Shown here piece after piece: positions 10,061 through 48,722 of a stretch of 64,000 nucleotides of DNA. Made by a program: the position numbers and the translations under genes. The notes below the pieces were generated by a model, which had not been told where the DNA came from, ran no database searches, and worked only from the letters and a program-made list of their open reading frames with translations. Source of the stretch: Canna indica (lineage: Eukaryota; Streptophyta; Magnoliopsida; Zingiberales; Cannaceae); the NCBI GenBank assembly GCA_034359265.1, contig CP136890.1, positions 42,878,501 through 42,942,500 of the forward strand, read 5' to 3'. The stretch's first letter is position 1. Every line of letters begins with the position of its first letter.

Positions 10061-11440
10061 ATGCAACCTGGAGATGAGGCGAAAGAAAGGGATCTGACGG
10101 CAAGAGTCGTGATTGCAGGATCAAGACCTAATCCTCCAAAGGCATATCCAAAGATGCTGAACTCTTGGGCTGCAATGTTCAAGGAGGCCAGTTTCCATTC
10201 TACCCCGGAAGTAAGCAAGAAGACAGAGTCAAGGATTAAAACTATCCAAGAGAGCTCTTCAAACAAATTGTTCATTGATGATAAATTGATGGAATCAGCT
10301 AGGCTTAACTGGGTAAATTGTTGATACGGTAATTTTTTTGGAAAGACTCCCCCATTAGCTTTGGTTCAAGCTGTCATGCCTAGGATTTGAAAGATTAAGC
10401 ACATTATGCATGCAATTGATCTTGCTTTGTTTTTTTTGCTTTAAATTTACAAATATTGATTATATGAATGTTGTTCTGTCAAATGGACCTTGGTTTCTAA
10501 ATGGCCAAGTACTGCTGCTTATTCCTTGGAAAGCCAATTTCCAACCATTGCTTGAGAAAATTGATACTATCCTGGTTTGGATGCAATTCTCGGGGCTGCC
10601 AGTAGAATACCTTTAAAAATACATCCTCTTCAAGCTAGCTTCTAGAGTAGGTCAACCAATAAAAATCGATGAAGTAACTAATAGGGGCTTAAGGGAAAAG
10701 TATGATATAATATGTATCCTATGTAAGTTGAACAATAAGGTTCCAAAAGGCATCTGGATAAACTATATGGGCAGTAGTAGTATTTGGCAGGCTCTAGCTT
10801 TTGAAAATATTCCAAAACTTTGCTACGAATGTGGGAAAATGGGCACCTTGTAGAATCTTTGTTTTGAAACCAACAAGTCTAATGTAGCGACTAATACATC
10901 AGGTGTTAATAATGAAGAAGGCATAATAAAAAATAGTAACGACACTAGAGTAAATTCAAATGAGGAAAATGTAGCTGTTGACATCCATGGGCCTTGGCAG
11001 CTTGTTAGTAGAAGGAGAAAGAATGGTTTAAGGAGAAATGACAATCCAAAGTTAAAAACCTCAGTTCAACATGAAAAAAGAACTGAAACTGATAAGCATA
11101 CTGTTCAGAAGAAAGAAAATATAGCAAATGAAATGATCATAGAAAAGGCCAAGGTGTTTGTTGAACAAATTGATAAAAAGATGGAATGATTTGAACCCAG
11201 CTCCTATGAAAAGGCTACAACTAGCTCACTGGAAAACCCCTTCAGTAAAATTAATGGACCAGGACAAAATTCAGCTTGTAAGTAATAAATCAGTCAGCTT
11301 CACTACACCAAAAATAGAGGAAATAAAAGTACCAATAGGTGTAGACAAAGAACTAGAAACTTTTCACAAAAAAATGACAGAGGTTTTTGAAATCACTGTC
11401 AGTGAAATAAAAGGAAATAAAATTTTTGACAGGAGGAAAT
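10061..11440 (+). pseudogene. LINE ORF1, 5' part (DUF4283 and CCHC zinc finger)
   Basis: Begins MQPGDEAKERDLTARVV. A DUF4283-like segment follows (CFKFTNIDYMNVVLSNGPWF...LVWMQFSGLPVEYL), then a CCHC_4-type knuckle CYECGKMG at about 10830. A 1-bp deletion there destroys the His. Other shifts and stops occur near 10320 and 10615. ORF1 proteins bind LINE RNA. The frame runs open to the G2 insertion at 11440 and continues in the same frame at 15829. Confidence 0.75.
11436..11440. repeat. Target-site duplication of G2 (left), GAAAT
   Basis: GAAAT at 11436-11440 is matched by GAAAT at 15824-15828. Excising G2 and one copy leaves LINE ORF1 open across the join, reading DRRKSILNCLL. Confidence 0.8.
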
Positions 11441-11810
11441 TGTAATATCCTAAATATTTAATTATATCATTTTCCTTTATGGTTATATTTGCCAGCCTAG
11501 CAGACTAGATCGAGGTTGAGCCGAGTGGACTCATGGTCCGGTGCGAGTTTGCGAACTCGTGTAAGTAAGAATTCGAGTTATGTTAATTTTGCTTGTATAG
11601 ATTAATTTATTTAATCTTTTTATGTTGCGTATTCATAAGTGTTTAATTATGTGGCATGTGGATGTGGATGTGCATTGTGGTTATATTAGTTATGGATGAT
11701 TATGTGGAAAATAAAATTAATTAAGTTAATTTAAGTTAGCGGGTTCGGGTTTTGCTTAAGGTGGATACGGGTTTGATAAAGGGCTAGTGGAGTTAGGGTT
11801 GAGGAGGGAG

Positions 11811-11817
11811 TATAAAA
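11811..11817 (+). promoter_or_regulatory. TATA box of LTR G2
   Basis: TATAAAA in a G-rich to C-rich transition, followed by a C/T-rich leader. It is the likely start of R in this LTR. Confidence 0.55.
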
Positions 11818-12190
11818 TCCCCCTCCCCTTGGCTTATGGCTCCCTATTTGGAGCCACCCAAGCTTTAGAAGAACGGAGCAACTGCCAGCCGCAGGAGCCG
11901 CCAGCCGCCCCCTTCCTCTCTCCCTCTCTCTTGCGAGCCGCCGCCCTCAAGCCCAGTTGCCGAGCTTCTTCCCTTCCCTTTCCTTCTCTCTTCCTTCCCT
12001 TTGGAGCCGAGCTAAGAGGAGCCTGCCAAAGCCAGCCCCTCTCTCTTCCTCTCTCCCTCTCTCCAAGCCGATAGCTTGGAGTGAGCCGCCGCCCCTCTTG
12101 TCCCCTCCCTTGGGTCAAGCCGCCATCTTTTCAAGCCGGATTCGAGGGCCGTCATCTGGGATTTCTCCTTTATTCATTCTTCCTAATTAG

Positions 12191-13870
12191 GTGAGTGGTT
12201 TTACCCTCCTTCTTTCGAGTTTCTTCGAGTTCTTGAAGCCAATCTTGAAGGCTATTGAAATCTTGATTTGTTTCCGATGATTTCTCGAATTCTAGACGTT
12301 CTTTTTGTGTGCCATGTTTGAGGAGACCCTAAACCCTTCCCTTTAGGGTTCAGCAGCCCTAGGACGGCCCTAGGGGTGCTTGTCCAAGGGTGGAACAAGA
12401 GTGCCCTCAAGGTGTTCGATGAAATGCCTAAGCGATGGATCTTGATTATCTTGTAGTTTATATCTCAAATTGATGATTAAAATGAGTTCTTATATGTTCA
12501 AGCATGCTTAGTATTTAATCTGTGATTCTTGGAGAAAATCATATTTTTGTGAAAATTAGGATCTTGATGTTGATGCCATGAAGGTTTTTGCAAGATGATT
12601 TCTTGATTTAAATCCTTGATCTTAAAGGTTGTTCTTGATTAAAGATGATGGTAGGGCTTGATAATCTTGTTTAAAAATATGATTTTTGTGAGAATTATCT
12701 AAATGTTATAATTCTGATATGTTGGTGAATTAAGGATTTAATTTCTGTGAATTTTCGGATTTATTTTCATGACATGCTGAACATTCAATGTTGCTGGAAT
12801 TTCATGCTGAGATGATGAATCTGTGCTATTTTTGTAATGCTTGTTGTGGTGATTATATTTCTCTGAACATAGTCATGTAACCTATCATTTTAATCCGAAA
12901 ATATAGTTTGGAAACATAGGACACACTCTGGAGATCAAATTCGGATTAGGTACATCGGTTTCGGGCAAAACAGTAAGCTAAAACAAAACCCTAATTGTGG
13001 TGAACTAAATTTTAATTGCATAATTAAAATTGGGTAAAAGGGTCAGCATAATCTATTATGAACCAACATGAGAATTTTATGCATAAAATAAAACTACACG
13101 GGTTTATGACATTACGGGTCTAGGAGTTGGGATCGGATATTGGAGTGTTGAGACACTTTCCAATAGGAACACCCATGAGACACCGTAGGAAAGACTTGAC
13201 TTAGGTCATGGTGTGCCAAATCTTTATGAATGGCGGAGAGGCTCGTCGAGGAGCCGAATTGCGGGCTAGGCCCAGGAGGTTGGGTGGCTAATTACCAACC
13301 TGAAGAACAAGTTCGGAGGGTCTTTCCCGATTGTTCTAGTTTGGCCTCGTGGGATAAGTTCGGAGGGCCTACCCGATTATCCCCGAGGTGGTTTTAAGGA
13401 ATAAGTTCGGAGGGAATTTCTCGATTATTCCTATGATATCTTTTAAGAGTAAGCTCGGAGGGCATACCCGATTACTCTTATGATATTTTAAAGGGGCAAG
13501 TTTGGATGGGCGAATCCCAATTGTCCCTACGCGTCTCGTGGAGCAAGTTTGGAGGGATTTTCTTGATTGCTCCCGAGTTTATTTATACTAGGATAAGTTC
13601 GGAGGGCCTTCCCGATTATCCTAGTATGTGTTGTTGCTTTATGGCATGGCAGGCTTAGGCTTGTTGTCCTTCACCATTTGGGTGTTGGTTGCCTTCGGGC
13701 AGGTGGTGGCTGGATGACCTATTAGCAAGTCACTCCTTTGTGACATTTTCCTGCTTGAGTCAGGAGTTTTACCTTATTCAACTTAGCTGTGATGTTTGTT
13801 TTTATGAGGGTTGGTAGAACCGCTCACGGAGTTCTATGAACTCACCCGTTGTCGTTGTTTTATTTTGCAG
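12191..13870 (+). other. Possible leader intron inside LTR G2
   Basis: AG|GTGAGTGG at 12191 matches the plant donor consensus. TTTATTTTGCAG|AGCC at 13859-13870 matches an acceptor with its pyrimidine tract. The same pair occurs in G1 (23321 and 24722) and the acceptor in G3 (39131). Splicing would remove the hairpin array from the transcript. Splicing itself is inferred. Confidence 0.4.
13277..13625 (+). repeat. Array of stem-loops with covarying stems in LTR G2
   Basis: Seven units share the loop 'gttcggaggg...cccga' and are each closed by a different but matching stem: GAACAA/TTGTTC (13305-13336), GGGATAA/TTATCCC (13351-13383), AGGAATAA/TTATTCCT (13397-13432), TAAGAGTAA/TTACTCTTA (13444-13480), GGGGCAA/TTGTCCC with one G-U (13493-13527), GGAGCAA/TTGCTCC (13540-13573) and ACTAGGATAA/TTATCCTAGT (13587-13625). 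A leading hairpin AGGTTGG/CCAACCT is at 13277-13301. Spacing is about 36-57 bp. The paired changes point to conserved RNA or DNA folding. Confidence 0.85.
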
Positions 13871-13926
13871 AGCCTGACTGGTGAGGTGGGCTGGAGCACT
13901 TGGCGCAACTGGAGGGCAGAGGAACC

Positions 13927-15465
13927 TGTGGGCGAAATGGCGACAATAGAGGGGGGATGAATAGAGTGTTTACTAAAGAGATTAGCCTAAATTCACTTTT
14001 AATCTTTTCTTGGATTGGTTTAGGCAATTTGCGATTCAATGATTATATGCGAAAGCAATAATAATTAAGCAATTAAAGACACACAATGAATCAACGCAAA
14101 CACATGTATTTATAGTTGTTCGGCCCCAATGCCTACTCCACTACCTAAGCATTCCGCTTAGCATTTCCAAACTAGAATTACTAGATTATATCGAGTTTCC
14201 CTTACAACGATGACTTTTCACTGGAAAGTCTCCGCTCTCCAACCGAAGGCACTTCCACATCCGGAAGTATCCCGCCTTCCTACCGAGAGCACTTTCCCAC
14301 CTCAACCTAAGGGACAACTAGAGCTAATCCTAGTAACAACTAAGTTTACACAAGTGGCTTTACTCCTTCTACACCAAGGATACCACTTCACGCGACAAGG
14401 CCTAACAACCCTAGGTCTTTACACAAACACAAATCCAAAAATAGTTTAAATAATAAATAAAATTTACAATCAAAAGAGCTTAAGAATAAATCAATAATAA
14501 AAGCTCCTTTGCAAGCCTTTGGCACCTTTAACTCGTCAGGGGATGAGCTTGATCAAAACCCGAGTTGAAGCAGCAGCTGGCACTTGAGAAAGGTTGCCGC
14601 TGAAAGAAATAGGGTGCACTGCAATCACTCTTTGGAAGGATTTAATCTCCTTTTAAATGCTCAATAAATTCTGTTAGAGTAGGAGAAGTACATTAAATGA
14701 AGTATATGAGGGTGTATTTATACCCTCGTGAAGAAATGACTACTCAACGGATAGAAAACTATCTGTTGCAGACCGTCGGTCGAATGGTCGGTCGATCGAC
14801 CTATCGACCTATCGACCGATCATTCGACCGCTTCACATCTGTTTGTAATCGGTCGATCGACAGGTCGACCGCCAGACGCCACTGTTCATTCCTGACCTTC
14901 GGTTGACCCATCGGTCGACCGACACGATCTCGCATCTTGGGTATCCATAGGTCGGTCGACCGCCCGAGCTACTGCCCAATTTGGGCTTCAATCGGTCGAC
15001 CGCCCGGTCGACTGAAATAGCTCTACTGCGATTTCTTCCCTATGTTCGATCGACCGACGGGTCGACCGAATGTCTACTGCCCCTTTTTCCTATAGTCGGT
15101 AGACCGCCTGGTCGACCGAACCTAGGCTGAGATTGATTTCTTCAGCCTTTTTCTTCCGCGCTTTATTTCCGGGTTTCGGCTTTCAACGACTATTGACTTG
15201 GAGAGCTTTCATGTGATCTTTGAGCCCGTCCAATATGTCTTTCATGCATGCGTCGCTCTTCGAGAAGTTTCCGCGACGAACCCGAGCGCGACGATCAATG
15301 TCCTTCCGATTTTTTATTTCTCCGATTTTTCTAATCGAGGACATCGGACGCTAATTGATATGGAACCTGAAAGATATTCTCAATGAAATCATTAGTCCCA
15401 TGTTTATTATCATCAAAACTATCAAAACCGATATTAAGGCTAAGGTTGAAAACCTAAAGCCAACA
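13927..15465 (-). mobile_element. Solo LTR C1 (TGTTGG copia family)
   Basis: Plus-strand ends TGTGGGCGAAATGG and AAAACCTAAAGCCAACA. Target duplication GAACC at 13922-13926 and 15466-15470. It is inserted in G2. Length 1539 bp. The family is tied to copia by copy C7 (45114-46345), which abuts a tRNA-Met primer site and a UBN2-type gag. A palindrome-rich block fills 14770-15115. Confidence 0.85.
14770..15115. repeat. TCGACC/GGTCGA palindrome array in LTR C1
   Basis: Tandem units of about 60-75 bp, each with one or two self-complementary cores such as CGGTCGACCG or GGTCGATCGACC, separated by 'ctactgccca.ttt.ggcttc'-like spacers. Open frames across the block are by-products of its composition. 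Equivalent blocks mark every C-family LTR in the window. Confidence 0.7.
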
Positions 15466-15828
15466 GAACCATATGATCTCATAGCGCGCAGTCCTAGTTA
15501 GGGTCGTAGTCAACTCTTTTGGTAGTGTGTCATGCACTTTTGTTGGTCTTTTTGAGTTGTAGCCCTTGAGGGCATTTATGTCACTTTATTCAGATTTTAT
15601 TATATTTGGTCTGTTGGACTTGCTGTATTATTTCCATACTTTATTTGTTTGTCAAAACTTGTTTATGATGAACTCTGTTTTTATTTTTAGATGAAATAAC
15701 AACTTGTTGAATTCTTTTCGCTATTGTTTATTCTTATGATGTTGGCATGTGCATGAGTTAGGCTGCGGGGTATAGGCATGTATACACTGGCCGGTCACGT
15801 GACCCTATATTTGGGACATGATAGAAAT

Positions 15829-16024
15829 CAATACTGAACTGCCTATTAATACTAAACTCAAGAAGTAGGAAGCCTAATTCACAAATTATTCACCTCTCTA
15901 GCTTCCCCTTTAATGTAAAGCAAAATAAAGGAAAGAAGAGGAGATTTTCCATTGATTCTAAGGCAATTCAGCCAGATGGAGACCCAAGCAAAGCCAAGGG
16001 GGAACACTCCAAGCACACAGTGAT
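15829..16024 (+). pseudogene. LINE ORF1, continuation after G2
   Basis: Open, lysine-rich frame in phase with the 5' part (…SILNCLLILNSRSRK, later KQNKGKKRRFSIDSK). It lies between the G2 duplication (15824-15828) and the C2 LTR starting at 16025. Basic, low-complexity tails are usual for plant LINE ORF1 proteins. It ends at the C2 junction with GTGAT. Confidence 0.65.
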
Positions 16025-20959: not shown

Positions 20960-22845
20960 CAAATTGAGATAAATCTCAAGAAAAAAATAAATACAGAGAA
21001 TCTTGAGGCGGACCCGAGAAAGAGAATTCTAATTTATTTGATGACAAAAGATCCGACAGAAAGAGAACATACGGAAAGCATATTTGCTAAAAGGTCCAAC
21101 TCAAGCAATGCTCAAGAATTTTCCTTAAAGAGAAGTCTATGAAAAATTACAAAGATTTAATCCAATGTGGTATGATGAATTTGGTGCTTGGTTGGAATAC
21201 AGTGAAGAGAAATATGCGTGCTTTAGCTTATATTGCTATCTTTTCAATCTAGAATTTAGGAGTTCAAAATTTGGTCATGATGGCTTTGTTGGGACTGATT
21301 TTAAACAGTGGAACAAAAAGGATAGAATCAAACTTCATGTGAGAGATCCTAGCAGCATTCATAGAAAATGTTATGAAGCTGGGCAAGACTTGATGAGCGG
21401 CAAAAAGCACATTGACATTGCTCTTTCTAATATTTATGAACAGTCAAAAGTTGATTATCGTCTTCGGTTGAAAGCATATTTGATGTGTACAAGACATCTT
21501 CTGCGAAATGGACAATCTTTTTGAGGTCATGATGAGTCAGATAGCTCCAATCGACAAGGTTTATTCCTTGAAACTCTAAAGTTTGTTGTTGTGCTTAATA
21601 AAAAAAAAATTAATGTTGTTTTGAAGAATGCACTAGAGAATCATAAATTGACTGCACCATCAATTCAAAAAAATATTGCTCAAGTTTGTGCTGATTTAAT
21701 AGTAAAAGCAATTGTTGATGATGTTGGAGATGATAACTTTGCCTTACTTGTTGATGAAGCTCGTGATGTGTCAATTAAAGAGCAAATGACTGTCATGATA
21801 TGTTATGGGGACAAAAAAAGATCAGTTCTTGAGCATCTTATTCGAATTGTTCATGTTCAAGATACTACTGCAAGGTCACTGAAAGCAGCAATTAATCGTC
21901 TCTATTCTAAACTTGGTCTGAGTTTATCAAAATGTCGTGGTCAATGCTATGATGGTGCAAGCAAAATGTCTGGTAAATTTAATGGGCTTAAGAGCTTGAT
22001 TTTGGCAGATAATAAATTTGCATATCAATTACAATTGGTTCTTATAAAGGCTGTGAAAATCATAGAAAAGTTCAAGAATTATTTGACATGCTTCAGAAGA
22101 TGGCTACTGTTGTTGGAAGTTCTTGTAAGCGAAAAGATTCTCTTCAGAATAAACAATATAAGTTGATTGTCCAAGACATTGCTTCTGGTAAAACAACAAC
22201 CGGAAGAGGCCTGAATAAAGAAACAACAATGAAACGTCCGGGTGATACACGCTGGGGTTCTCATTATGCCACAGTTGCAAGTGGCATCTCAATGTTCTCC
22301 CCCCTTGTTTCTTTAATGAATGAAATTGAAGAGGACCCGGATAATACTTCAGCAAGAACTGAAGCTACCTATATTTCATATATGATGGATAGCTTTGAGT
22401 TCGGGTTCTTGTTGCATCTTATGCTTCTTATCTTGGGTATCAGTTTTGAGTTATCACAAGCATTACAAAGGAAAGATGAAGATCTTGCAAATGCATTTGC
22501 TTTCATTGGAGTAGAGAAGCGTCGATTGCAAGACGTAAGAGATAGTGCCTTTGATAGTTTGCTCTAAGAAACTATTGATTTTTGTAACAAACATGAAAAT
22601 GCGGTTGAATCACAAACAGACCTATTGTCCTAAAGGAAGATCAAGGAATAGAGTGGAATTACATACCTTCTCCAACTTTTTTACGGTCGAATTATTCAGT
22701 CAAGTCATAGATAGTCAGCTTCAAGAGTTGAATGACTGCTTTGATAACATCAATACAAGCTTGTTCAAGTGCTCGAGTTGTCTTGACCCGCGTGAGAAGT
22801 TTGTCTCCTTCATTACACATAAATTGGTTAACTTTGCTAATTTCT
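20960..22845 (+). pseudogene. hAT transposase, N-terminal and central part
   Basis: Segments in shifting frames: NLEADPRKRI (about 21000) and WYDEFGAWLEYSEEKYACFSLYCYLF (TTF-type zinc-finger region), then RSSKFGHDGFVGTDFKQWNKK. Next comes the DUF4371/catalytic part with LLVDEARDVSIKEQM and RGQCYDGASKMSGKFNGLK. The expected 'HCFAHQ' stretch near 22015-22040 is shortened. VVGSSCKRKDSL and RPGDTRWGSHY follow. Multiple stops and shifts. These enzymes cut and paste DNA in the nucleus; this one is dead. It is cut by G1 at 22845. Confidence 0.85.
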
Positions 22846-25118
22846 TGTAATGCCCAAAATCCTAAAAATAACATTTTATTCTTAAGCAGGGGATCATGGG
22901 CTCGAGTTAGCATGGGTTGGCGTAGAGCTGCGAAATTGAATTCAAGTAAGCTTCAAATATAAAAAAAAAATTAGAAAAAATCTATTTATTTTGTTTTTTT
23001 TATTTATCATACTAATATGATAGAGGATATTGAGACGAGTCTATAGGTTCAAGCGGAACTCAAATCGGAGTTAGAATGAATTAATTATAGAATTTAGAAG
23101 TCAGGTCGAATAAGTGAGAGCATTTTGGTAATTTGGGCTAACTAGGGCCCATAAATTACCCATTGGGGGCGCACAGCTACTGTTTAGCCGCACAGAGAGA
23201 GAGAGAGGAGGTGACACCAAGGAGGAGGAGGAACCGTCAAAGTCGGAATTTCGCGAGTTCGTCGGTGCCGATTGAAGGAGGATCTCTATCATCTTCTTCC
23301 TTCTTGTTTTTTCCAAAGAGGTGAGTGGATTAACCTTCTTTTTCTCTCTTTTTCATCAACCATGCTGCCACCCCTATGTCATGGGGTTTCGTCAATTTTT
23401 TTATATTCGATTTCGTCATATTGGTTTGAGAAATTGTATTGAGGGTTTTCCTATCGTCGTTGTGATTTTGTTGGATCTATTTTTGGGCGATTTGGCCGCC
23501 CCAACCCTTGCTGTGCCACCCTACTTTTCCTTCAATTTTTAATGATTTCTTTGGGGCTTCTTGATGATTGTTGAGGGTTCTTGGTTCTTGCTTTAAATCT
23601 TGAGGGAAGAAGGTGTTTTGGGGGGGATTTAGGGTATGCCCCCCCTTTAGGGTTCTTTAGAAACCCTAGGGTGCCCGGCCACTTAAAGGAAGGATTTTTA
23701 GGTTTTTTAGCATATTTCCACACTTAGGGATTTCACTTTAGGGTATGTTGAATTTATTCATAATTATATAAACATTGTATGAACCTATACCTCTGAATTA
23801 AGGACCCTAGGGATACCTAGAGACATTAGGATCCTAATTTCTCATTCGGAAGGGTCGACCGTAAGGACACCTATGGGGGCCGAACCTTCCTTGCCCTTAG
23901 GGCACTCGGGTGAGGGAGGTAGGCCGACCCTAGGGTACTCGGCTAGGGTCACCAAGCCGGGCTAAAATTGCATAGGATTGTTGGGTGGTGATTCCCTATT
24001 TTATGGCTTATTATATATGCTTTTTGTTCTATTTTCCTACGCTATTGGATTTGTTGTACCTTTTATTTATGAGTTCTACATTCCATGTTATATTCTTATA
24101 TACATGTGTGGTTGTGATTTATGACTTGAGGAGGTGGAGGTGGAGGTATGTCCTTAACCTAGCTTGTTATATAATGATAGCGCATCTTATGCTTATTCTT
24201 ATAACTGCGTGTGTGATGTTTCTTGTGCATTTCCTGGTGGCCTCGCTGGTGAGGGGAGGGTATTCCCTAATGCGACAATATTGGCCTTATTTTGAAAGTT
24301 CTGATGGTGAGGGAAAATCATACCCCAAAGAGACAGTCCGTAGACCCGACCGGTGAAGGGAACGTATGCCCCAAAGACACGGTTTGGAAGAGCCAGTGCC
24401 GGTGAGGGGAGTGCATGCTCCAAAGAGATGGCATTGAGCTGGGTGGTAGTTTGGAGTCCACACCGTCTACCTACCCTATGTGGCTTGAGGGGCCGATGGG
24501 TTTAGAGATCATTCATGTGGATGTGACATTGCATTATGATGTTTTATCTGTGATGGATGTGGTTGTCATGCGTAGAGTAGTAGATATGCTTATTATGTTA
24601 TGATGCAATTTACTGCTTTTTATTATGCTTCCTTATTGCATGATGATGATGTTGAGGAATCGAGGACTGATCTACTCACTAAGTCTAAGTTGGACTTACC
24701 CCTCATTTGTGTTGTTTTACAGCACCTGTGTTAGATTAGAGAGGTACTGGGGTGCAGTAGCGTGGCTGGTGGTACCAGGGTAGCGGGTCTTGTGACATGT
24801 CGTGGTCGAGGGGGATACCTGAGTGTTTTCTCTTTTCTTTGAGTTAATGAATCATTTAGAATTAGGTCGATGTGGTCGAGGGGGATACTTGAGTCTTCTC
24901 TCTTTTCTTTTAGGCATCTTGGTTATTTGTAAAACTTTCTTTAATAACTTGAACATTTTATGTTATTTGAGTCTATAGTTTGGTTGAAATTGAGTTTATT
25001 TATTCTCTTTGAAATATTATGGTTTGTTTAGGTTATTTCTATATTGTAGTTTGAGTTGGGTAAGACTTCGGGGTACGTGGCATACCCTGGCCAGTCATAC
25101 CGGATTTGGGGTGTGACA
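22846..25118 (+). repeat. G1 5' LTR
   Basis: Has a TATA-like ATAAATTA (23151), a GA-repeat leader, donor-like AGAG|GTGAGTGG (23321), a GGGG/CCCC hairpin repeat block (about 24235-24425), an acceptor-like TTTTACAG (24715-24722) and the end GGTGTGACA. Confidence 0.9.
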
Positions 25119-25959: not shown

Positions 25960-27431
25960 TGTTGGCTTTAGGTTTTCAACCTTGGTCTTAATCTCGATTT
26001 TGATGATAACAAACATGGAACTAATATTTCACTAAGAAATCTTTCAGGTTCCATATCAGTTAGCGTTCGATGTCCTCGATCGGATAAATCGGAGAAATCA
26101 ATAAATCGGAAGGACATTGATCTTCACGCTCGGGTTCATCGTGGAACATCTCAAAGTTCGACGTGTGCACCAAAGTCGTATTGGACGAGTCCAAAGATCA
26201 CATGGAAAGCTCTCCAAGCTGATGCTCGTTGAAAAGCCGAAACCCGGAAATGAAGCGCACAAGAAAAAGGGCTAAAAAATAATATCAACCTATGTTCGGA
26301 CGATCGAAGAGTGTAAAAAAAATGGCAGCAACATTTTGATCGATCGGTCGGTCGATCGAACAGTGCTAAAAAGCAGCAGAAGCTACTTCGCTCGATCGGG
26401 CGATCGACTGATCGAAGCCCAAAATGGGCAGTAGCTCTGTCGGTCGACCAATCGCTAAAGACGCGACCTGCGTCGGTCGACCGATGGGTTGACCGGATTG
26501 AGGATCGCAGGTTTTGTGTCTGGCGGTCGACCCGTCGGTCGACCGCACACACAGAGGAAGGCAGCGGTCGTTCGAGCGATCGATCGGTCAGTCGACCGAC
26601 CAATCGACCGAGCGTCTGCAATGGATAGTTTTCTATCCGTTGAGCTGTCGTTTCCTTGAGAGGCTATAAATATCATTCATCTAACCTCTCTAAACCCTCT
26701 CCTTGATTCTTACAGACTTTATTGAGCACTCAAAAGGGAGAATTGAGCCTTCTAGAGATTGAATCGCGGCGCCCTAATCTTCCATCAAAATCCGCTTCAA
26801 GCGCACTCTTTCTCAACTCGGGATCTGATTCGAGTCTATCTCCTTGGCGAGTTGAAGGCGTGAAAAGAGCATTGATTTTTGGTTACATTCTAAGCTCTTT
26901 TTCATTGTAATTTTAACTGTTACTTTTCTTGGATTTGAGATTGCACAAAGACCGAGTGTTAGGTCTTGTTGTGTGAAGTGGTATCCTCAGTGTAGAAGGA
27001 GTAAAGCCACTTGTGTAAACGTAGTTTTACTATGATTAAGTAAGTTGTCCCTTAGGGTTGAGGTGGAAGAGTGCTCTCGGTAAGAAGGCGGAGACTTCCG
27101 GGTGTGAAAGTGCATTAGGTCGAGAGTGCGACTCTTCGAGTCAAAAGTCCTCATTGTAAGGGAAACAAGCATTAATCTAGTAAACCTAGTTTGGAAATCC
27201 TAAGCGGGGTATTTAGGTAGTGGAGTAGGCATTGGGGCCGAACCACTAAAAATTTGTGTGTTTGTATTGATACTCTATTTTGTGCTTAATTATTTTATCT
27301 TGCTTCGGCATCTAATCATCGAATTACAAATTGCCTAAACAATCTAAGTAAACGACTAAAATTGGATTTAGGCAAATTGATTTAGAAAATACACTATTAA
27401 CCCTCCCTCTAGTGTTACCATTTCGCCTACA
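25960..27431 (+). mobile_element. Solo LTR C5 (C family) inside G1 gag
   Basis: TGTTGGCTTTAGG to TTTCGCCTACA, 1472 bp, flanked by CCCAG (25955-25959) and CCCAA (27432-27436). Removing it restores the Gag reading YLP-KNVRERRAREFDC. The palindrome block is at 26335-26620. Target duplications one mismatch apart fit an old insertion. Confidence 0.85.
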
Positions 27432-31450: not shown

Positions 31451-31463
31451 GGGGGGAGCAAAT
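31448..31463 (+). promoter_or_regulatory. G1 polypurine tract
   Basis: AAGGGGGGAGCAAAT immediately before the 3' LTR. Confidence 0.75.
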
Positions 31464-31816
31464 TGTAATGCCCAAAATCCAAAAAAATAATATTTTATTC
31501 TGAAGCATGGGACCGTGGGCTCGACTTAGCGTAGGTTGGCGTAGAACTGCAGAATTGAATTCGGGTAAACTTTAAATATACAAAAAAATTAGAAAAAATC
31601 TATTTATTTTGTTTATGTGATTTAGCATGCTAATATGATAGAGGGTCTCGAGACGAGTCTATAGGTTCAAGCGGAACTCGAATTGGAGTTAGAATGAATT
31701 TATTATGGAATTTAGAAGTCGGGTCGAATAAGTGAGGGCATTTTGATAATTTGGGCTAACTAGGGCCCATAAATTATCCATTGGGGGCGCATAACTACTG
31801 TTTAGCCGCACGCCAC

Positions 31817-31861
<45 letters not shown>

Positions 31862-33720
31862 GAGGAGGAGGAGGAGGAGGAGCCGTCGGAGTCGGAATTT
31901 CGCGAGTTCGTCGGTGCCGATTGAAGGAGGATCCCTATCGTCTTCTTCCTTCTAGTTTTCTCCAAAGAAGTGAGTGGATTAGCCTTCTTTTTTCCTCTTT
32001 TTCATCAGCCATGCTGCTACCCCTATGTCATGGGGTTTCGTCAATTTTTTTATATTTGATTTCGTCGTAATGGATTGAGAATTCGTATCGAGGGTTTTCC
32101 TATCGTCGTTGTGATTTCGTCGGATATATTTTTGGGCAATTTGGCCACCCCTACCCTTGCTGTGCCACCCCACTTTTCGTTCAATTCTTGATGATTTCTT
32201 TGGGGTTTCTGGATGATTGTTGAGGGTTCTTGGTGCTTGCTTGAAATCTTGAGGGAAGAAGGTGTTTTAGGGTGGATTTAGGGTATGCCGCCCCCCTTTA
32301 GGGTTCTTTAGGAACCCTAGGGTGGCCGGCCACCTAAAGGAATGATTTTTAGATTTTTTAGCATATTTCCACGCCTAGGGATTTCACTTTAGGGTATGTT
32401 GAATTTATTCTTAATTATATAAACATTGTATGAACCTATACCTCGGAATTAAGGACCCTAGGGATACCTAGAGACATTAGGACCCTAATTTGTCATTCGG
32501 AAGGGTCGACCCTAAGGACACCTAAGGGGCCCGAACCTTCCTTGCCGACCCAAGGGTACTCGGCTAGGGTCACTAAGGGCGGGTTAAAATTGCATAGGAT
32601 TGTTCGGTGGTGATTCCCTGTTTTAGGGCTTATTATATATGCTTTTCGTTCTCTTTTCCCTACGATATTGGATGTATTTTACCTTTTATTTATGAGTTGT
32701 ACATTCCGTGTTATATTCTTATATACATGCGTGGTTGTGATTTATGACTTGAGGAGGTGGAGGTTGAGGTATGTCCTTAACCTAGCTTGTTATATACTAA
32801 TAGCACATCTTATGCTTATTTTTATAACTGTGTGTGATGTTCTTGTGCATTTTCCAGTAGCCTAGCTGGTGAGGGGAGGGTATGCCCCAAAGAGACATCG
32901 TTGGCCTTATTTCGGAAGTTCGGCTGGTCAGGGGAGATAATACCCCAAAGTGACAGTCCGGAGACCCGACCGGTGAGAGGAACGTATACCCCAAAGAGAT
33001 TGTTCGGAAGAGCTAGTGCCGATGAGGGGAGTGCATGCCCCAAAGAGACGGCATTGAGCTGGTTGATAGTTCGGAGGCCACACCGTCTACCTACACTACA
33101 TGGCTTGAGGGGCCTACGGGTCCGGAGATCATTCTTATGGATGTGACATTGCATTATGATGTTTTATATGTGATGGATGTGGTTATCATGCGTAGAGTAG
33201 TAGTTATGCTTATTATGCTATGATGCAATTTACGGCTTTTTATTATGCTTCCTTATTGCATGATGATGATGTGGAGGAATCCAGGACTGATCTACTCACT
33301 AAGTCCTAGCTGAACTTACCCTTCATTTATGTTATTTTACAACACCTGAGTTAGATCAGAGAGGTATCTGGGTGCAGTTGCGTGACTGGTGGCGGTAGGA
33401 CAGCGAGTCTCGTGACATGTCATAGTCAAGGGTGATACCTGAGTGTTTTCTCTTTTCTTTGAGTTAATGAGTCATGTAGACTTGGATCGGTGTTTCCACA
33501 TTTTATTTCTTTTAGGAGTCTTGGTTATTTGTAAAACTTTCTTTAATAACTTGAACACTTTATGTTATTTGAGTCTATAGTTTGGTTGGAATTGAGTTTA
33601 TTTATTCTCTTTGAAATATTATGGTCTGTTCAGGTTATTTCTATATTGTGGTTTGAGTTGGGTTAGGCTTCGGGGTACGTGGTGTACCCTGGCCGGTCAC
33701 ACCAGATTTGGGGTGTAACA
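31464..33720 (+). repeat. G1 3' LTR
   Basis: Pairs with 22846-25118. It contains an expanded GA run (31819-31860) followed by GAG repeats to 31880, a donor-like GAA|GTGAGTGG (31970) and a GGGG/CCCC hairpin repeat block (32868-33062). The acceptor-like site here reads TTTTACAA, so the AG has been lost in this copy. Confidence 0.9.
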
Positions 33721-38749: not shown

Positions 38750-40260
38750 TGTCACACCCCAACTCAGGATCACGTGACTGGCCAGGGTATACGTGCTTAT
38801 ACCCGACAGCCTAAACCGTGCATATGCCAACTCAACAATAAAACATAGCGGAAAGAAATAACGAGTTTTATTTCAAATGAAAAATCAAATCAGAATTCAT
38901 TATAAGTTTAGCAAAATAATAAAGTGCGAAAATAATAAATCAAGTTCAACTGTTCAATTACAATGAAATATGAAATAAATACATGAATGTCCCCAAAGGA
39001 CTACAACTCCAAAATACTGAAACACAAGTGCATGACTAACTACCAAAAAACTCGACTACGACCCCTAACTAGGACTGCTATGAGAATAATGTAGCTCCTC
39101 TATCCTCCAGCCCACCTCACCGGTCAGGCTCTGCAAAACAAAAACAACGACAACGGATGAGTTCAAAGAACTCAGTGAGCAATTCTACCAACCCCCACGA
39201 AAAAACGACACAGAGATAAAGCATAAGCATAACACTTATCTCAACAGGAATAAAGTCACGAAGGTGTGACTAGCTATCAAGCCATCTCAACATGCCCTAA
39301 GGCATCCAACACCCCAAGGGTGAAGTACAACAGGCCTAGCCTACCATGCCCTAAGGCAACAATCATACAAGGATAATCGGGATTGGCCCATCCGAACTTA
39401 TCCTAATATAAAGAAACTCGGGAGCAATCGAGATTGGTCCGTCCGAACTTGCTCCATGAGACGCGAAGGAACAATCGGGATTCACCCATCTAAACTTGCC
39501 CCTTTTAGATATCGCAGGGATAATCGGGATTTCCCATCCGAACTTACCCCTTTAAGATATCACAGGAATAATCGGGATTTGCCCGTCTGAACTTATTCCT
39601 TCAAAATACATCGGGAATAATCAGGATTTCCCCGTCCGAACTTATTCCATGAGACCATATCGGAACAATCGGGATTTGCCCATCTGAACTTGTTCCAAAG
39701 AAATAACGTAGGAATAATCGGGATTCGTCCATCCGAACTTATTCCTTTAAAATAGGTTGGGAATTAGCCATCCAACCTTACGGGCCTAGCCCGTAATCCG
39801 GCTCCTAACTGAGCCTCTTCGTCATTCATAAAGATATGGTGCAACAAGACCTAAGTCAAGTCTCTCATATGATGTCTTAGGGGTGTCCTTATTGGGAAGC
39901 GTCTCAACACTTCAATACTCGACCCCAACTCCTAGACCCGTAATGTAATAAACCCGTGAGGTTTTATTTCATGCATAAATTTTATTTGTTGGTTCATAAC
40001 AGATTATGCTGACTCCTTGCTCAATTTTAATTATGCAATTAAAATTTAGATCACCAAGATTAAGATTTTATTTTAGCTTACTATTATGCCCGAAACTAAT
40101 GTATCTAACCCGAATCTGGTCTCCAAAGTGTGTCCTATGTTTTCAAACAATATTTTTTAGTCAAAATGATAGATTACACGACTATATTCCGCAAACTATG
40201 CACATCATAAACAAGATTTCAAAATCAGCCTTGATTTATGAAGTTTCAGCATAATTAAGA
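38750..40260 (-). mobile_element. Truncated LTR G3 (G2 family)
   Basis: Reverse complement ends GAGTTGGGGTGTGACA, a canonical gypsy LTR terminus. It matches G2 from about 12800 to its end (shared 'ctgaccggtgaggtgggctggag', the hairpin array and an 'aggacacactttggag' block). The first about 1.3 kb of the LTR is missing; the break at about 40260 joins element A. The acceptor-like TTTTGCAG is kept at 39131-39138. Confidence 0.8.
39370..39778 (-). repeat. Array of stem-loops with covarying stems in LTR G3
   Basis: Eight units plus the AGGTTGG/CCAACCT hairpin (39754-39778). Stems: AGGATAA (39370-39404), GGAGCAA (39421-39455), GGGGCAA with two G-U pairs (39468-39502), GGGGTAA with one G-U (39517-39550), AGGAATAA (39564-39600), GGAATAA (39614-39648), GGAACAA (39662-39696) and AGGAATAA (39710-39746). 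The wobble pairs form only in the LTR-sense transcript, in three of three cases in the two arrays. One unit more than G2. Confidence 0.85.
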
Positions 40261-40650: not shown

Positions 40651-43158
40651 GGGGAGCTACCACAGAAGGGTAAAGAGAAGTGAAGAGTTGAAGTTGACCA
40701 TGGACTTAAATGAATTATCATTCCTTGGTTGCAACTTCAAACCATAATGATGCCATAGGTATAGAAATTGGCATCTAGGTATATTTTGGTATCATCTCCT
40801 ATACCCTCTTGCTTAAATTATAGTTGGAGTTTGATATATGATTAATGGTAGAAGATTTTCCGCTCTTGATAAGTTTCAAAAACGTTTTTTGGTTTTTTTA
40901 TTTCCGGTCTCTTTAGAGACCTATGTGGCCTATAACGAGCTTAAGCGACCTTGCGATTCTAAATCATAGGCTAATTGCGGCCTTTCGATTTTCAACCAAT
41001 AGGAATGATTGGAGATCATGCATGTTTTCATTTATATTTTACTTGTGATCTCTTTAAATTCGTTTTGATATCACTCAATTTCATTTTGAAACAAATTTGA
41101 AACTATCTAGCAAAGTAGACTTTGATATCGATAATTGATCCCTCTCTTTGCTACTTAGTTTGATAACTTGCTAGTAATTATATTTTCATTATCCTACTAA
41201 TCATTATTGCTTGCAAGTTATAATAAAATGGAAGGCTTTAGAAATTGGAAAGAAAAAGACAAGTTTGGCAAAATTTCCAAGAATAGATATGATTTTGGTT
41301 TTACAAAAATCTTAGTTTAATACCTCAATATTAACACTTTATCGGTGTCTCTATACTCATGATTAGAATTGCATGATAAATCTTTGAATTCTCATGAGTA
41401 GGTAGGATTTTAGTACTTAGGCAAATTTCATTGAATGAAACTTGCTCTAGGTTGATACTTATTATTAGAGACTCTATTTTAAGTACAAACTAGTAAACTT
41501 ATTTAGAGATCCTATTCCTCAAATATTTCATACCTTAAGATCTATCTGATTCATTTTGATATCATGATAATTCCTTTAAAATGAATTCCTACTATCTAGC
41601 ATAGGTTAAGACTTTTAAATGAAACTTTGCATTGAACCTTTGCTATTTAGTAAATTAGCTTGCTAGTTGGTATATGATTTCATTATGGTACTAATGAAGC
41701 CTACTTGCAAGTTGAGAAAGTGGTAAAATTTGAAAGGCTAAAGGAAAATGGAAAGAAATTGGAAATTTTGGAATTTCTCAAGAAATGAGGTAGGAGTTTC
41801 ATTTTGGTAAAATTCTTGCATAACACCTCCATTTTCTTGATTAAATGATTTCTCTATGCTCATGAATGATCTTGCATGATAATTGATTGAAATCTCATGA
41901 GTAGATAAAATTTTGATACTTAGGCAATTTCATGAAATCCTATTTGAATAAAATGTGCCCTAGGTAGAATTTCATCTTAGAGACTTCATTTTAAGTTGAA
42001 ATTTGATAAATATGTTTGATTTCACTCATGATTTGTTTCCATGTTATTAAAATTGAAAAATCATGTGAAAATGGATAAATTGATAACAAGTTCACTTTAG
42101 GAGACCTAAAATTGAGTAGAGTTAACATAAGTCAACAAATTGGCTTAGAGACTTCATTTTATGTCCAAATTTCACAAACATGTTTAGATTTACTCATGTT
42201 TGGTGTCCATGTGTTAAAATTTGAAAAATCATGAGTAAAGGTTAAAACTTGGTACTTAGCAATTTCATGATACAATGTTTGTTTTTGAATGAAATCATGG
42301 TAAGGTAAAATTTTGACCAAATGATATTATTTTCATCTCAAACTTAATATACATGCTTTAAATAATCATACTTTGGTATCTAGAAAGTTTGGATGAAATC
42401 TGAAAATGTATGGAAAAAATGACTTATATTTACAAAATGCCACTAGAACTCAATGAATTTTAGAAAAATGTAGAAAAATAATTTTTTTGTTGATTCTTGA
42501 ATTTGCATCTTCCTTGAAAAATCTAGTTTATGGCATAAAATTTTTGAAAATCTTTGAGTATGAATATGATTTGATTTGGATTTTTGAAATTGGATTTTGA
42601 AACTTTAAAGTATCGTTATTCCCAAATGCTCATTTCTCGATACTTTGGATTTTCGTCGAAATCTTTGAATGGGACTTCAAGTATGATGTTAGATTCATGT
42701 TTTCGGTATCGTTCTCATTTTGACTTGTGAAAAATCATTTCTAAAATAGTTTTTGATATGTTGACCGATACATGAAAATATCATAACTTGAGCTTGGTAC
42801 ATGATTTCTAGTCTTAGATTATGTTTAGCATTCTATGATATCATGTATTGATTAGTCTCACTTGTATGTATGTTTTCATCCCTTGAGTTGAGATCTACAT
42901 GTTTTCATGAAAACAAGTTTTTAGGTCCCAACTTTGATTATAGGTTGACCTTTTTTGCCCTTTTTGATTGATGTCAAAAAGGGAAGAAAAATATAGGTAA
43001 AAAGGAAAGAAAATATAGGAAAACCATGCATATAAATAGGGGGGTTTATTTTCATAGAAATGCATGTCGATAGAGGGAGAAATCCCATGTTTGATATCCT
43101 TTGTGCTTGAATGATATATTTTCTTAAGGATGTTTGTCATCATCAAAAATGGTGAGAT
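40651..43158 (+). other. Non-coding internal region of element A, with internal repeats
   Basis: No open frame of note. Two diverged direct copies of about 320 bp (about 41190-41510 and 41690-42000) share 'gcttgcaagtt', 'tctatactcatga', 'gcatgataa' and 'tgatacttaggcaatttcat'. Shorter 'catgtt...aatttgaaaaatcatg' blocks recur near 42020-42240. 43145-43158 is the A/G-rich tract before the LTR. Confidence 0.55.
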
Positions 43159-44293
43159 TGTTGGCCTAAGGTTTTCTACCTTGGTCTTAATCTCGGTTTT
43201 AATTATAACAAACATGGAACTAATGTTTTATTGAGAAATATTTTTAGGTTCCATATCGATTAGCACTTCATGTCCTCAATCGAAAATATTGAAGAAATTA
43301 GAAAATCAAAAGGACATTGATCGATGGGTTCGTCTTCGAAATCTCTAGAAGTTCGACGCGTGCACCAAAGATGTCTTGGACGAGTCTAAAGAACACATGG
43401 AAAGCTCTCCAAGTTGACGCACGTTGAAGGCCGAAACCCGAAAATGAAGCATGCAAGAAGAAGACTGAAAAAATCAAGCTCAGCCAAGGTTCGATCGATC
43501 GACCGAATGTGGTCAAAAATTGGTAGTAGCCAATTCGGTCGATTGGTTGCCAAGAAGCGGCAGAAAGCCTTCGGTCGCTCGGTCGATCGACCGACGATCG
43601 ACTGGCAGGCGACCGACGATCGATAACGGGCAAAATTTTGCCCATTGAGAAGAGAGGTGTACTCTTCTCTTCATGGCCTATAAATATAAGGTCATTAGAG
43701 CCTTCCTCCCTAATCTTGATCACTTCTACTACCTTTGAAACATCCTTTTGATCAATCCTAAGCCCTCATTGAGCCAATCTTGTGAAAACCCTAGCTTGAG
43801 CCAAAAACCTTGATCCTCCATTCACTCCTTCATTGATTAACTATCAAAGGCATCAAGAGAAAGCTAGGAATCTTATTTTGGAGCTAAGTATTTTATTATT
43901 TGATTTATTGCTCCATTTAGTGTTGTATTGTCTTGTTTATTTCTTTGTATTTGAGTTTGTGTAAGACTTTCCGAAAATGTTTGAGAGTGGAGACTTTTCG
44001 GTGTAAAGTTCTCTTTGTAAGGGAAACAATTAATCTAGTAAAGTTTAGTTTGGAAATCCTAAGCGGGGTGCTTAGGTAGTGGAGTAGACATTAGGGTTGA
44101 ACCACTATAAATACTTGTGTTAGCATTGTTTTCTTTGTGTATTACATTGCTTATCTTTATTACTCGCTTTCGCATTTAGTCGTTGAATTATGAATTGCCT
44201 AAGTAATCTAAGAAACATTTAAAATCGAATTAGGCAAAAAGATTTAGATAACACACTATTCAACCCCCCTTTAGTGTGGCCATTTCACCAACA
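43159..44293 (+). repeat. LTR C6, 3' LTR of element A
   Basis: TGTTGGCCTAAGG to TTTCACCAACA, 1135 bp, preceded by 'catcatcaaaaatggtgagat', a typical copia polypurine context. The palindrome block is short (43488-43625). The expected CTATC duplication is seen only on the right (44294-44298). Confidence 0.8.
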
Positions 44294-47530: not shown

Positions 47531-48722
47531 ATGCTCGAATCTTCGAGGGCCCTGAGGACGAAGGTAGTAAGGGCTTTGAGGCCAAGGATTGTGCCTGGGG
47601 TCAAGTAGAGCTCGTCGAGGAGCGTAAGGCAGCACCGCACTCGAGGTCATTAAGGGCTCTTATGCTGAAAGTAGTAAGGTTTCTGAGGTCGAAAGTAGCG
47701 ACGTTGAGGCCGAGTAAAGACTAAGGTCGGAACTAGCAGCACTAAGGCCGACTAAGGGCTCTGAGGCCGAAAGTAGCGGTGCTAAAGCCGAGTAAGGGCT
47801 TTGAGGCTGGAAGTAGCGGCGTTAAAGCCGAGTAAGGACTCTGAGGCCGAAAGTAGCAGCACTGAGGCTGAGGACCACACTTGGGGTCAACCCAAGCTCA
47901 TTGAGGAGCGTATGGCAAGACCGCGCTCGGAGTCGTTAAGAGCTCTGAGACAGAAAGTAGCAGCGTTGAGGCCGAGTAAGCGCTATGAGGTCGGACTCTG
48001 AGGCCGAAAGTAACGATGCTAAGATCGAGGACCACGCATGGGGTCAAGCCGAGCTCGCCGAGGAGCGTTAGGTAGGACCATGCTCGGGGTCATTAAGGGC
48101 TCTGAGGCTAGAAGTAGTGGCGTTGAGGCCGAGTAAGTGCTTTAAGGCCGAAAGTAGCGGCGTTGAGGTCGAGTAAGGTCTTTAAGGCCGAAAGTAGTAA
48201 GGGTTGTGAGGTCGAAAGTAGCAGTGCTACAGTCAAGTAAGGGATCTAAAGTTGGAAGTAGTGGCGCTGAGGCCGAGTAAGGGCTCTAAGGCCGAAAGTA
48301 GTAAGAGCTCTAAGGCTGAAAGTAGTGGCGCTGAGGTCGAGGACCACGCTTGGGATCAAGCCGAGCTTGTAGATGAGCGTTAGGCAAGACCGCGCTCGGG
48401 TGCACTAAGGGCTTTGAGACAGGAAGTACCGGCGTTGAGGCCAAGTAAGGGCTTTGAGGCTGAAAATAGTGGTGCTAAGGCCGAGTAAGGGCTCTTAGGA
48501 CGAAAGTAGTAAGGGCTCTAAGTCCAAAAATAGTGGCGATGAGGACGAGTAAGGGCTTTGAGGCCAAAAGTAGTAAGGGCTCTAAGGTTGGAAGTAGTAA
48601 GGGCTCTAAGGTTGGAAGTAGTAAGGGCTCTAACGCCGAAAGTAGTGACGTTGAGGCCGAGCAAGAGCTCTGAGGCCGGAAGTAGTAGAGCTGAGTCCGA
48701 GGACCATGCCTAGGGTCAAGCC
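47531..48722. repeat. GC-rich tandem array, unit about 39-40 bp
   Basis: Some 25-30 imperfect copies of 'ctgaggccgaaagtagcggcgttgaggccgagtaagggct', punctuated about every 160-360 bp by a longer segment around 'ggaccacgcttggggtcaagccgagctcg' (near 47872, 48029, 48341, 48700). This gives a higher-order pattern. Open frames (for example 47801-48001) result from units near a multiple of three. GC content contrasts sharply with the neighbours. Confidence 0.8.

Follow-up and report, generated by a model that had tools for sequence, protein, structure and literature searches.

In Canna indica, the LTR of a high-copy Ty3/gypsy-type retrotransposon carries a tandem array of short hairpins whose stems differ in sequence while their pairing is kept. 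We analysed a 64,000-nt stretch of contig C1 (the window) and surveyed the 753 Mb genome, comprising nine contigs, for further copies. Selection on pairing is well supported at the level of the helix, and the structure of the array is very probably under selection. As an explanation of the whole, we tentatively propose that the array, within a predicted leader intron, is a multivalent RNA element under selection that would probably mark the unspliced genomic RNA.

A hairpin array within the LTR of a Ty3/gypsy-type element

The window carries decayed pieces of Ty1/copia and Ty3/gypsy elements. Its LTR copies with arrays, and the hairpins in them, are as follows.

11441..15825, forward strand: LTR copy A, beginning TGTAATATCC; right end known to within a few bases; placed from the start and end contexts of other copies
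13924..15487, forward strand: repeat nested in LTR copy A, foreign to the element
13277..13301, forward strand: hairpin preceding the copy A array, AGGTTGG/CCAACCT; alike in the copies examined
13304..13337, forward strand: array hairpin A1
13351..13383, forward strand: array hairpin A2
13397..13432, forward strand: array hairpin A3
13444..13480, forward strand: array hairpin A4
13491..13528, forward strand: array hairpin A5; outer stem with one G.U, inner stem TTGG/CCAA
13540..13573, forward strand: array hairpin A6
13585..13627, forward strand: array hairpin A7, the longest, with a 12 bp outer stem
38750..40189, reverse strand: LTR copy B, the part homologous to copy A; ends GGGGTGTGACA
39370..39745, reverse strand: array of copy B with eight diverged hairpins, loop mostly GGAYGGGCNAATCC
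39754..39778, reverse strand: pre-array hairpin in copy B, of the same AGGTTGG/CCAACCT type

The host of the array is assigned to the Ty3/gypsy type because an LTR, a PBS-like site and pieces of gag, RVP_2 protease and RT are present. Some other LTR copies run on into TGTGGTATCAGAGC, presumably an initiator-Met PBS-like sequence, and several others end in ...GGGGCGTGACA followed by AATGTGGTATCAGAGC, which we take to be the usual initiator-Met PBS. An LTR end joined to the PBS-like sequence TGTGG(T/A)AT(C/T)AGAG(C/T) was found at 13 places. The internal region of one locus (L026) encodes pieces of Retrotrans_gag, RVP_2 and RVT_1, and that of another (L027) RVP_2 and RT. Within copy B, the piece at 39105-40189 (reverse strand) is about 80% identical to copy A and contains the eight diverged hairpin units. 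The family of the nested repeat has further window copies at 25960-27431 and 43153-44293 and bears GGTCGACC-type repeats.

Consistent with the preliminary description, seven hairpins with differing, complementary stems and a shared core were found at 13304-13627 inside an LTR (copy A, 11441..15825), and the stem sequences quoted there are correct. Of the span it gave, 13277..13625, the part 13277-13301 is a separate hairpin, and the array ends at 13627. Likewise, the loop it held to be constant proved to be a shared core with exceptions: GGATGG...CCCAA in unit 5, CTCGA in unit 3 and CTTGA in unit 6. From the outside in, each unit consists of at least five variable outer pairs, AA/TT, a core that is asymmetric and conserved (AAGUUCGGA...CCCGAUU), and a short loop. 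The outer stem, at least about 7 bp long, varies in sequence and keeps its pairing; counting the conserved AA/TT, most stems in the loci examined measure 7-9 bp, and none exceeds about 15 bp, before an internal loop. Units of copy A are spaced about 47-50 bp apart. Since short inverted repeats (e.g., ATTGGAGTGTTGAGACACTTTCCAAT, GGCTCGTCGAGGAGCC) border the array at 13130-13260 and 13640-13790, the structured domain may extend past the array itself.

Exact core matches in the genome numbered 2194 + 2277 (4471) and 1594 + 1690 (3284) for two core patterns, and the reversed control patterns for both cores gave no genome match. We took 90 loci, 58 as near matches to either window copy and 32 chosen from position listings; two of them (L001 and L029) duplicate the window copies and do not enter the unit counts, leaving 88. 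Units were found by their core, independently of the five variable stem pairs. A strict finder (38 arrays, 192 units) gave way to a laxer one (78 arrays, 596 units), from which units with more than two core mismatches were removed to give a set of 573; a later set held 653 units from 89 arrays. At least three units were detected in 83 of the 88 loci. As detected, arrays comprise 3-12 units, and 79 of 89 have 6-10. At C1:33467538-33776683, six copies of an unusual unit variant (TGTTTACC loop) lie about 54-73 kb apart, which suggests a large tandem duplication. A search of viral contigs gave one match in each of three contigs and none for the PBS region, which we took as chance.

The window also contains other repeats. 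Dense palindromes of ACCGGTAT / ATACCGGGCGGTAT words occupy 61970-62275, the richest place for short inverted repeats in the window (21 in 350 bp), and nested tandem repeats with units of 19 to 312 bp and AGTAAGGGCTCTGAGGCCGAAAGTAG-like words lie at 47673-48701. Direct repeats at 22845-25118 and 31463-33720, about 88% identical, surround protease and RNase H open pieces and are probably the LTRs of another Ty3/gypsy element; neither showed an excess of hairpins (12 and 7, with about 12 expected in each).

A predicted leader intron around the array

The signals that place the array within a putative transcript are listed below.

11811..11817, forward strand: TATA box TATAAAA, putative promoter, near the LTR 5' end
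11840..12190, forward strand: predicted leader exon 1, with a start position derived from that of the TATA box; 59% GC, no ATG
12191..12196, forward strand: predicted splice donor GTGAGT
12191..13870, forward strand: predicted leader intron with the array; 1680 bases, 40% GC, 35% T, 44 ATG
13861..13870, forward strand: predicted splice acceptor TATTTTGCAG
13881..13886, forward strand: possible second donor GTGAGG, speculative; after a 10-nt exon, in the conserved block

TATA-like letters are kept in the 8 commonest forms listed, which represent 12 of 28 aligned copies, and the exon 1 region of 7 other copies contains 0 or 1 ATG each. The donor GT is intact in all 42 aligned copies, compared with a mean of 0.61 over the 18 GT of 12050-12400, the donor included. 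At the other end, an AG within TGCAGAG is kept in 56 of 58 copies, the conservation of the acceptor's own AG (0.86) is ordinary among nearby AGs, and the acceptor region TTTTGCAG sits in 13841-13900, which of all 60-bp blocks in the LTR is the best conserved against B copies (91%). A second acceptor-like sequence, TTTTCTTTCTGGTGATTCCAG (pyrimidine-rich, ...TTCCAG), stands directly before the gag ATG, and its AG is kept in 8 of the 10 loci reaching that site, counted by eye. The LTR part past the 13870 acceptor, the predicted exon 2, has 11 ATG and more follow before gag, so that only the gag-proximal acceptor would give an ATG-free leader.

As the array lies between the donor and both acceptor-like sites, it falls within the predicted leader intron. 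The simplest reading is an intron that would start in the LTR and end past the array or before gag, and we consider it fairly likely that this intron is real; start site, splicing and polyadenylation of the LTR transcript are predictions. Searches of the genome with exon-junction patterns found no spliced-leader copies, the patterns fitting the exon end of the window copy only, so that copies with any of several other exon ends would be missed. The junction of exon 1 to AGCCTGAC gave 15 genome matches at 3 mismatches (reversed control, 1), which we rejected as spliced copies and read as unspliced acceptors with altered letters; 9 of the 12 fetched have the array upstream. The junction from the short exon to gag had no genome match, and that from exon 1 to gag had 2 inexact ones. 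Such an absence of spliced copies is expected if unspliced RNA has to serve as template: in reverse transcription, the 5' end of unspliced RNA supplies the U5 of new LTRs.

In the proposed mechanism, the LTR promoter would lie upstream, and the donor at 12191 would be joined to the acceptor at 13870 or to one just before the start of gag. The array would then be present only on unspliced RNA and may offer many binding sites to Gag or to an RNA-binding protein of the host. In this way it could mark the unspliced genomic RNA for export and packaging, while the spliced RNA would be the gag mRNA. Because progeny LTRs must be copied from it, the unspliced RNA is the one that the array most likely marks. 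In addition, a fixed core, stems that need only pair and mostly 6-10 repeats form the pattern expected of a binding platform. Among the roles named in the preliminary description, RNA packaging would best fit the position of the array. We favour a packaging or export tag on genomic RNA over all rivals, although for this role by itself our confidence is somewhat lower than for the explanation as a whole. More speculatively, and rather doubtfully, this retrotransposon family may have a leader intron with renewable tandem RNA sites, through which Gag or an export adaptor would select the unspliced RNA and the gain or loss of units would tune the strength of selection.

In the closest rival, the array would act on the splicing or the translation of the leader, either by slowing splicing or by helping ribosomes past the 44 ATGs of the unspliced leader in a shunt- or IRES-like manner. 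Several features agree with it: the array lies in the predicted intron and stops about 245 nt short of the acceptor, that intron has 44 ATG compared with none in exon 1, and the donor GT is intact in 42 of 42 copies. However, a role in splicing or shunting would call for stability rather than for a core fixed in hundreds of units with varying stems, and a single motif that is repeated points to a bound factor. We therefore regard control of splicing or translation as unlikely, and prefer the marking of unspliced RNA.

Pairing of the stems and the strand on which it may act

Pairing in the window was assessed with the 7 units of copy A and the 8 of copy B against 500 shuffles of the 3' letters. 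In the outer 7-bp stem all 105 cells pair, 18 of them changed on both sides. Over 180 cells, 97.2% were paired compared with 90.7% in shuffles, and 19 cells were changed on both sides compared with 7.0; the covariation score was 0.394 compared with 0.245. None of the 500 shuffles reached any of these three values, and registers slid by 1-3 columns paired in 19-56%. The other two of the five shuffle measures showed no excess in these 15 units: pairs with a change on both sides (5 vs 3.9; 124/500 shuffles) and further pair types (10 vs 11.0; 476/500).

Folding of the whole array gave z = -4.6 (sense) and -5.7 (antisense) for copy A and only -1.1 and -0.8 on the two strands of copy B, where the array would be missed by folding alone. 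We dropped folding energy as the main test and as strand evidence, given that it is weak in copy B and favours neither strand. In RNAalifold, the folding check proposed in the preliminary description, the outer stem was kept and an alternative inner pairing was offered, GGAK with WUCC in place of UCGG/CCGA; single units fold with either inner pairing.

In the set of 573, all five variable pairs were canonical in 74% of units compared with 31% after shuffling arms (maximum 35% in 1000 shuffles), the mean number of canonical pairs was 4.66 of 5 compared with 3.96 (maximum 4.02 of the 1000), and register 0 paired in 93% compared with 35-69% when slid. Left arms in these units went with their own right arms: GGAAT mostly with ATTCC, GGAAC with GTTCC, GGAGC with GCTCC, AGGAT with ATCCT, GGGAT with ATCCC, AGAGT with ACTCT and AGAAC with GTTCT. 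In the 653 units of 89 arrays, 12 stems recurred in at least 10 loci, with 59 of 60 pairs canonical and 11 of the 12 stems complete; 20,000 permutations of the right arms reached at most 57 canonical pairs and 10 complete stems. The innermost variable pair was T..A 4171 times and C..G 2779 times genome-wide.

Arm shuffles overstate the support, since both copies and units are related. We therefore used a tree null in which the stem substitutions of each branch were kept and moved among stem columns (592 distinct rows, 300 runs). With a tree built without the stem columns, the canonical fraction was 0.918 compared with a null of 0.751 (sd 0.037, maximum 0.871; 0/300), while for double-changed cells (613; null mean 353.5, maximum 660) some nulls exceeded the observed value. 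The full tree also gave 0/300 for the canonical fraction, but it was badly rooted (root only 0.2 canonical), which is why we rely on the tree without stem columns. The covariation statistics that the preliminary description called for, as an R-scape-like pairwise null on the 573 units (487 distinct rows), came out borderline: the loop-side pair c9/c-9 reached E = 0.017, but the innermost variable stem pair had 0.067, the third pair 0.33 and the other pairs 0.33 or worse. Similarly, the inner-stem pairs of the 653 units in 89 arrays showed almost no excess over independence except c9/c-9. Pairwise covariation is weak because the differences go back to old unit lineages that are modest in number, as are the independent paired changes. 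Taken as helices, the stems keep pairing with different sequence, as had been claimed, beyond what arm shuffles, slides and the tree null give, and differ from a pattern in which stem positions change independently.

A reading without function would have the array arise by tandem duplication of a palindromic unit, its arms kept alike by template switching in reverse transcription or replication. The variation in unit number (3-12) implies that duplication and loss are frequent, pairwise covariation is near its null, and an array of at least three units was not detected in 5 of the 88 loci (L062, L077, L085, L086 and L087), possibly owing to truncation or decay of those copies. Three of these five belong to the 12 loci found via the neighbouring acceptor motif. 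On the other hand, 9 of the same 12 loci retain 5-8 array units, the asymmetric core is conserved, and arm copying predicts perfect Watson-Crick stems, yet G.T stems recur in 23, 14 and 11 loci. Thus, a mechanism that copies palindromes, which the preliminary description had offered beside selection, accounts for alike arms but by itself fails to explain the recurrent G.U pairs and the conserved asymmetric core. We consider the neutral origin slightly less probable still than control of splicing or translation, and a selected RNA structure preferable to both.

The G.T stems also bear on the strand. Read on the sense strand, the 21 stems present in at least 5 loci have 91 Watson-Crick, 11 G.T, 2 A.C and 1 other pair; single-locus stems have 88 G.T and 48 A.C. 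The recurrent G.T stems are GGGGC/GTCCC (23 loci), GGGGT/ATCCC (14) and GGGGC/GTTCC, with two G.T (11). On the tree without stem columns, G.T:A.C was about 31:12 on branches leading to at least 5 loci and 157:126 at single-locus tips, so that the ratio rose from about 1.2 at the tips to about 2.7. On the full tree the counts were about 30:18 and 130:102, the ratio rising from 1.3 to 1.7, and for the outer stem alone G.T:A.C was 11:9. Decay through cytosine methylation hits both strands and should be even-handed. The predominance of G.U, on the sense strand, among recurrent pairs other than Watson-Crick is a hint of RNA rather than DNA, the excess being modest once the tree is considered, and selection probably acts on the sense RNA.

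This preference weighs against the array acting as DNA, that is, as dyad protein sites or cruciforms controlling transcription or chromatin. In Tnt1 and similar plant elements, repeated LTR motifs act as enhancers and offer a precedent, and antisense folding equals sense folding in strength. However, the arms differ between units and leave no fixed binding sequence, a cruciform would treat G.T and A.C alike where recurrent stems have 11 to 2, and the TATA box is about 1.5 kb upstream of the array. Action as DNA is accordingly improbable, more so than the neutral origin.

Stems of mostly 7-9 bp and at most about 15 bp compare with about 20 bp or more in a miRNA precursor and are too short for Dicer-like enzymes, so Dicer targeting, named in the preliminary description (stems here about 7-15 bp), is unlikely. 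That the hairpins feed miRNA-like or siRNA pathways is the least credible reading by far, even though TE-derived hairpins can turn into miRNA precursors, according to the available part of PMC10578108. That part, and the corresponding part of PMC2832683, held nothing bearing on LTR arrays. A search of 11000-16000 against Rfam 15 gave 8 sub-threshold matches, none in the array, and no model at gathering score.

Relation to known retroelement RNA structures

The favoured role, a tag on unspliced genomic RNA, has its closest counterpart in the retroviral psi of HIV-1 and MMTV, which in the excerpted accounts likewise consists of several hairpins in the 5' leader. Psi sits past the major splice donor and is thus confined to unspliced RNA, as would hold for the array in its predicted intron. 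The array differs in being one hairpin motif in tandem within the LTR itself, and binding to it is only proposed. Among export elements, the CTE also exports full-length LTR-element RNA, and CTE, RTE and MTE differ from the array in position and in repeat form. The RTE of IAP and the MTE of musD are structured RNAs that export full-length LTR-element RNA, as outlined in the accessible part of PMC12786077. The same part describes a plant element in which a structured leader is used for RNA export, the CaMV leader recruiting TREX (PMC12786077). CaMV is a pararetrovirus with one long leader structure, in contrast to the repeated short hairpin found here.

The tandem repeats of Retand and Ogre lie between pol and the 3' LTR, and we know of no paired, covarying units in them. 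They are tandem repeats in non-coding parts of Ty3/gypsy elements (cf. PMC11963269). Dimerization of Ty1 and Ty3 uses short palindromic or kissing sites at the RNA 5' end, the abstracts mentioning no tandem array (PMC11381356, PMC5454406); the Ty3 RNA was mapped in the former, according to its abstract. Introns in Ogre, EVADE and BARE1 yield spliced and unspliced RNA pools, and BARE has distinct RNA pools, in the accessible parts of PMC12786077 and PMC3735527 (the latter for BARE). The BARE1 intron, as excerpted, is 104 nt long and lies within gag, whereas the intron predicted here would be about 1.7 kb or more and begin in the LTR.

According to the accessible part of the 2025 review PMC12786077, plant LTR elements mostly lack introns, those with introns being exceptions, and RNA export of plant LTR elements has never been studied directly. 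Among the literature matches listed, in a search covering mostly papers outside subscription, none reported a hairpin array in an LTR, and no retrotransposon title was among the matches listed for the literal motif. For the question of how plant LTR retrotransposons separate the RNA to be translated from the RNA to be copied, a covarying hairpin with thousands of genomic copies offers a definite candidate cis-element together with a simple assay. The array also preserves a natural history of RNA stem drift via G.U and compensatory changes. A cis-acting RNA structure of an LTR element is of a known kind, while the tandem form is unusual. If the proposed role is true, the array would be the first packaging or export element of a plant LTR retrotransposon, following the retroviral plan with one hairpin repeated.
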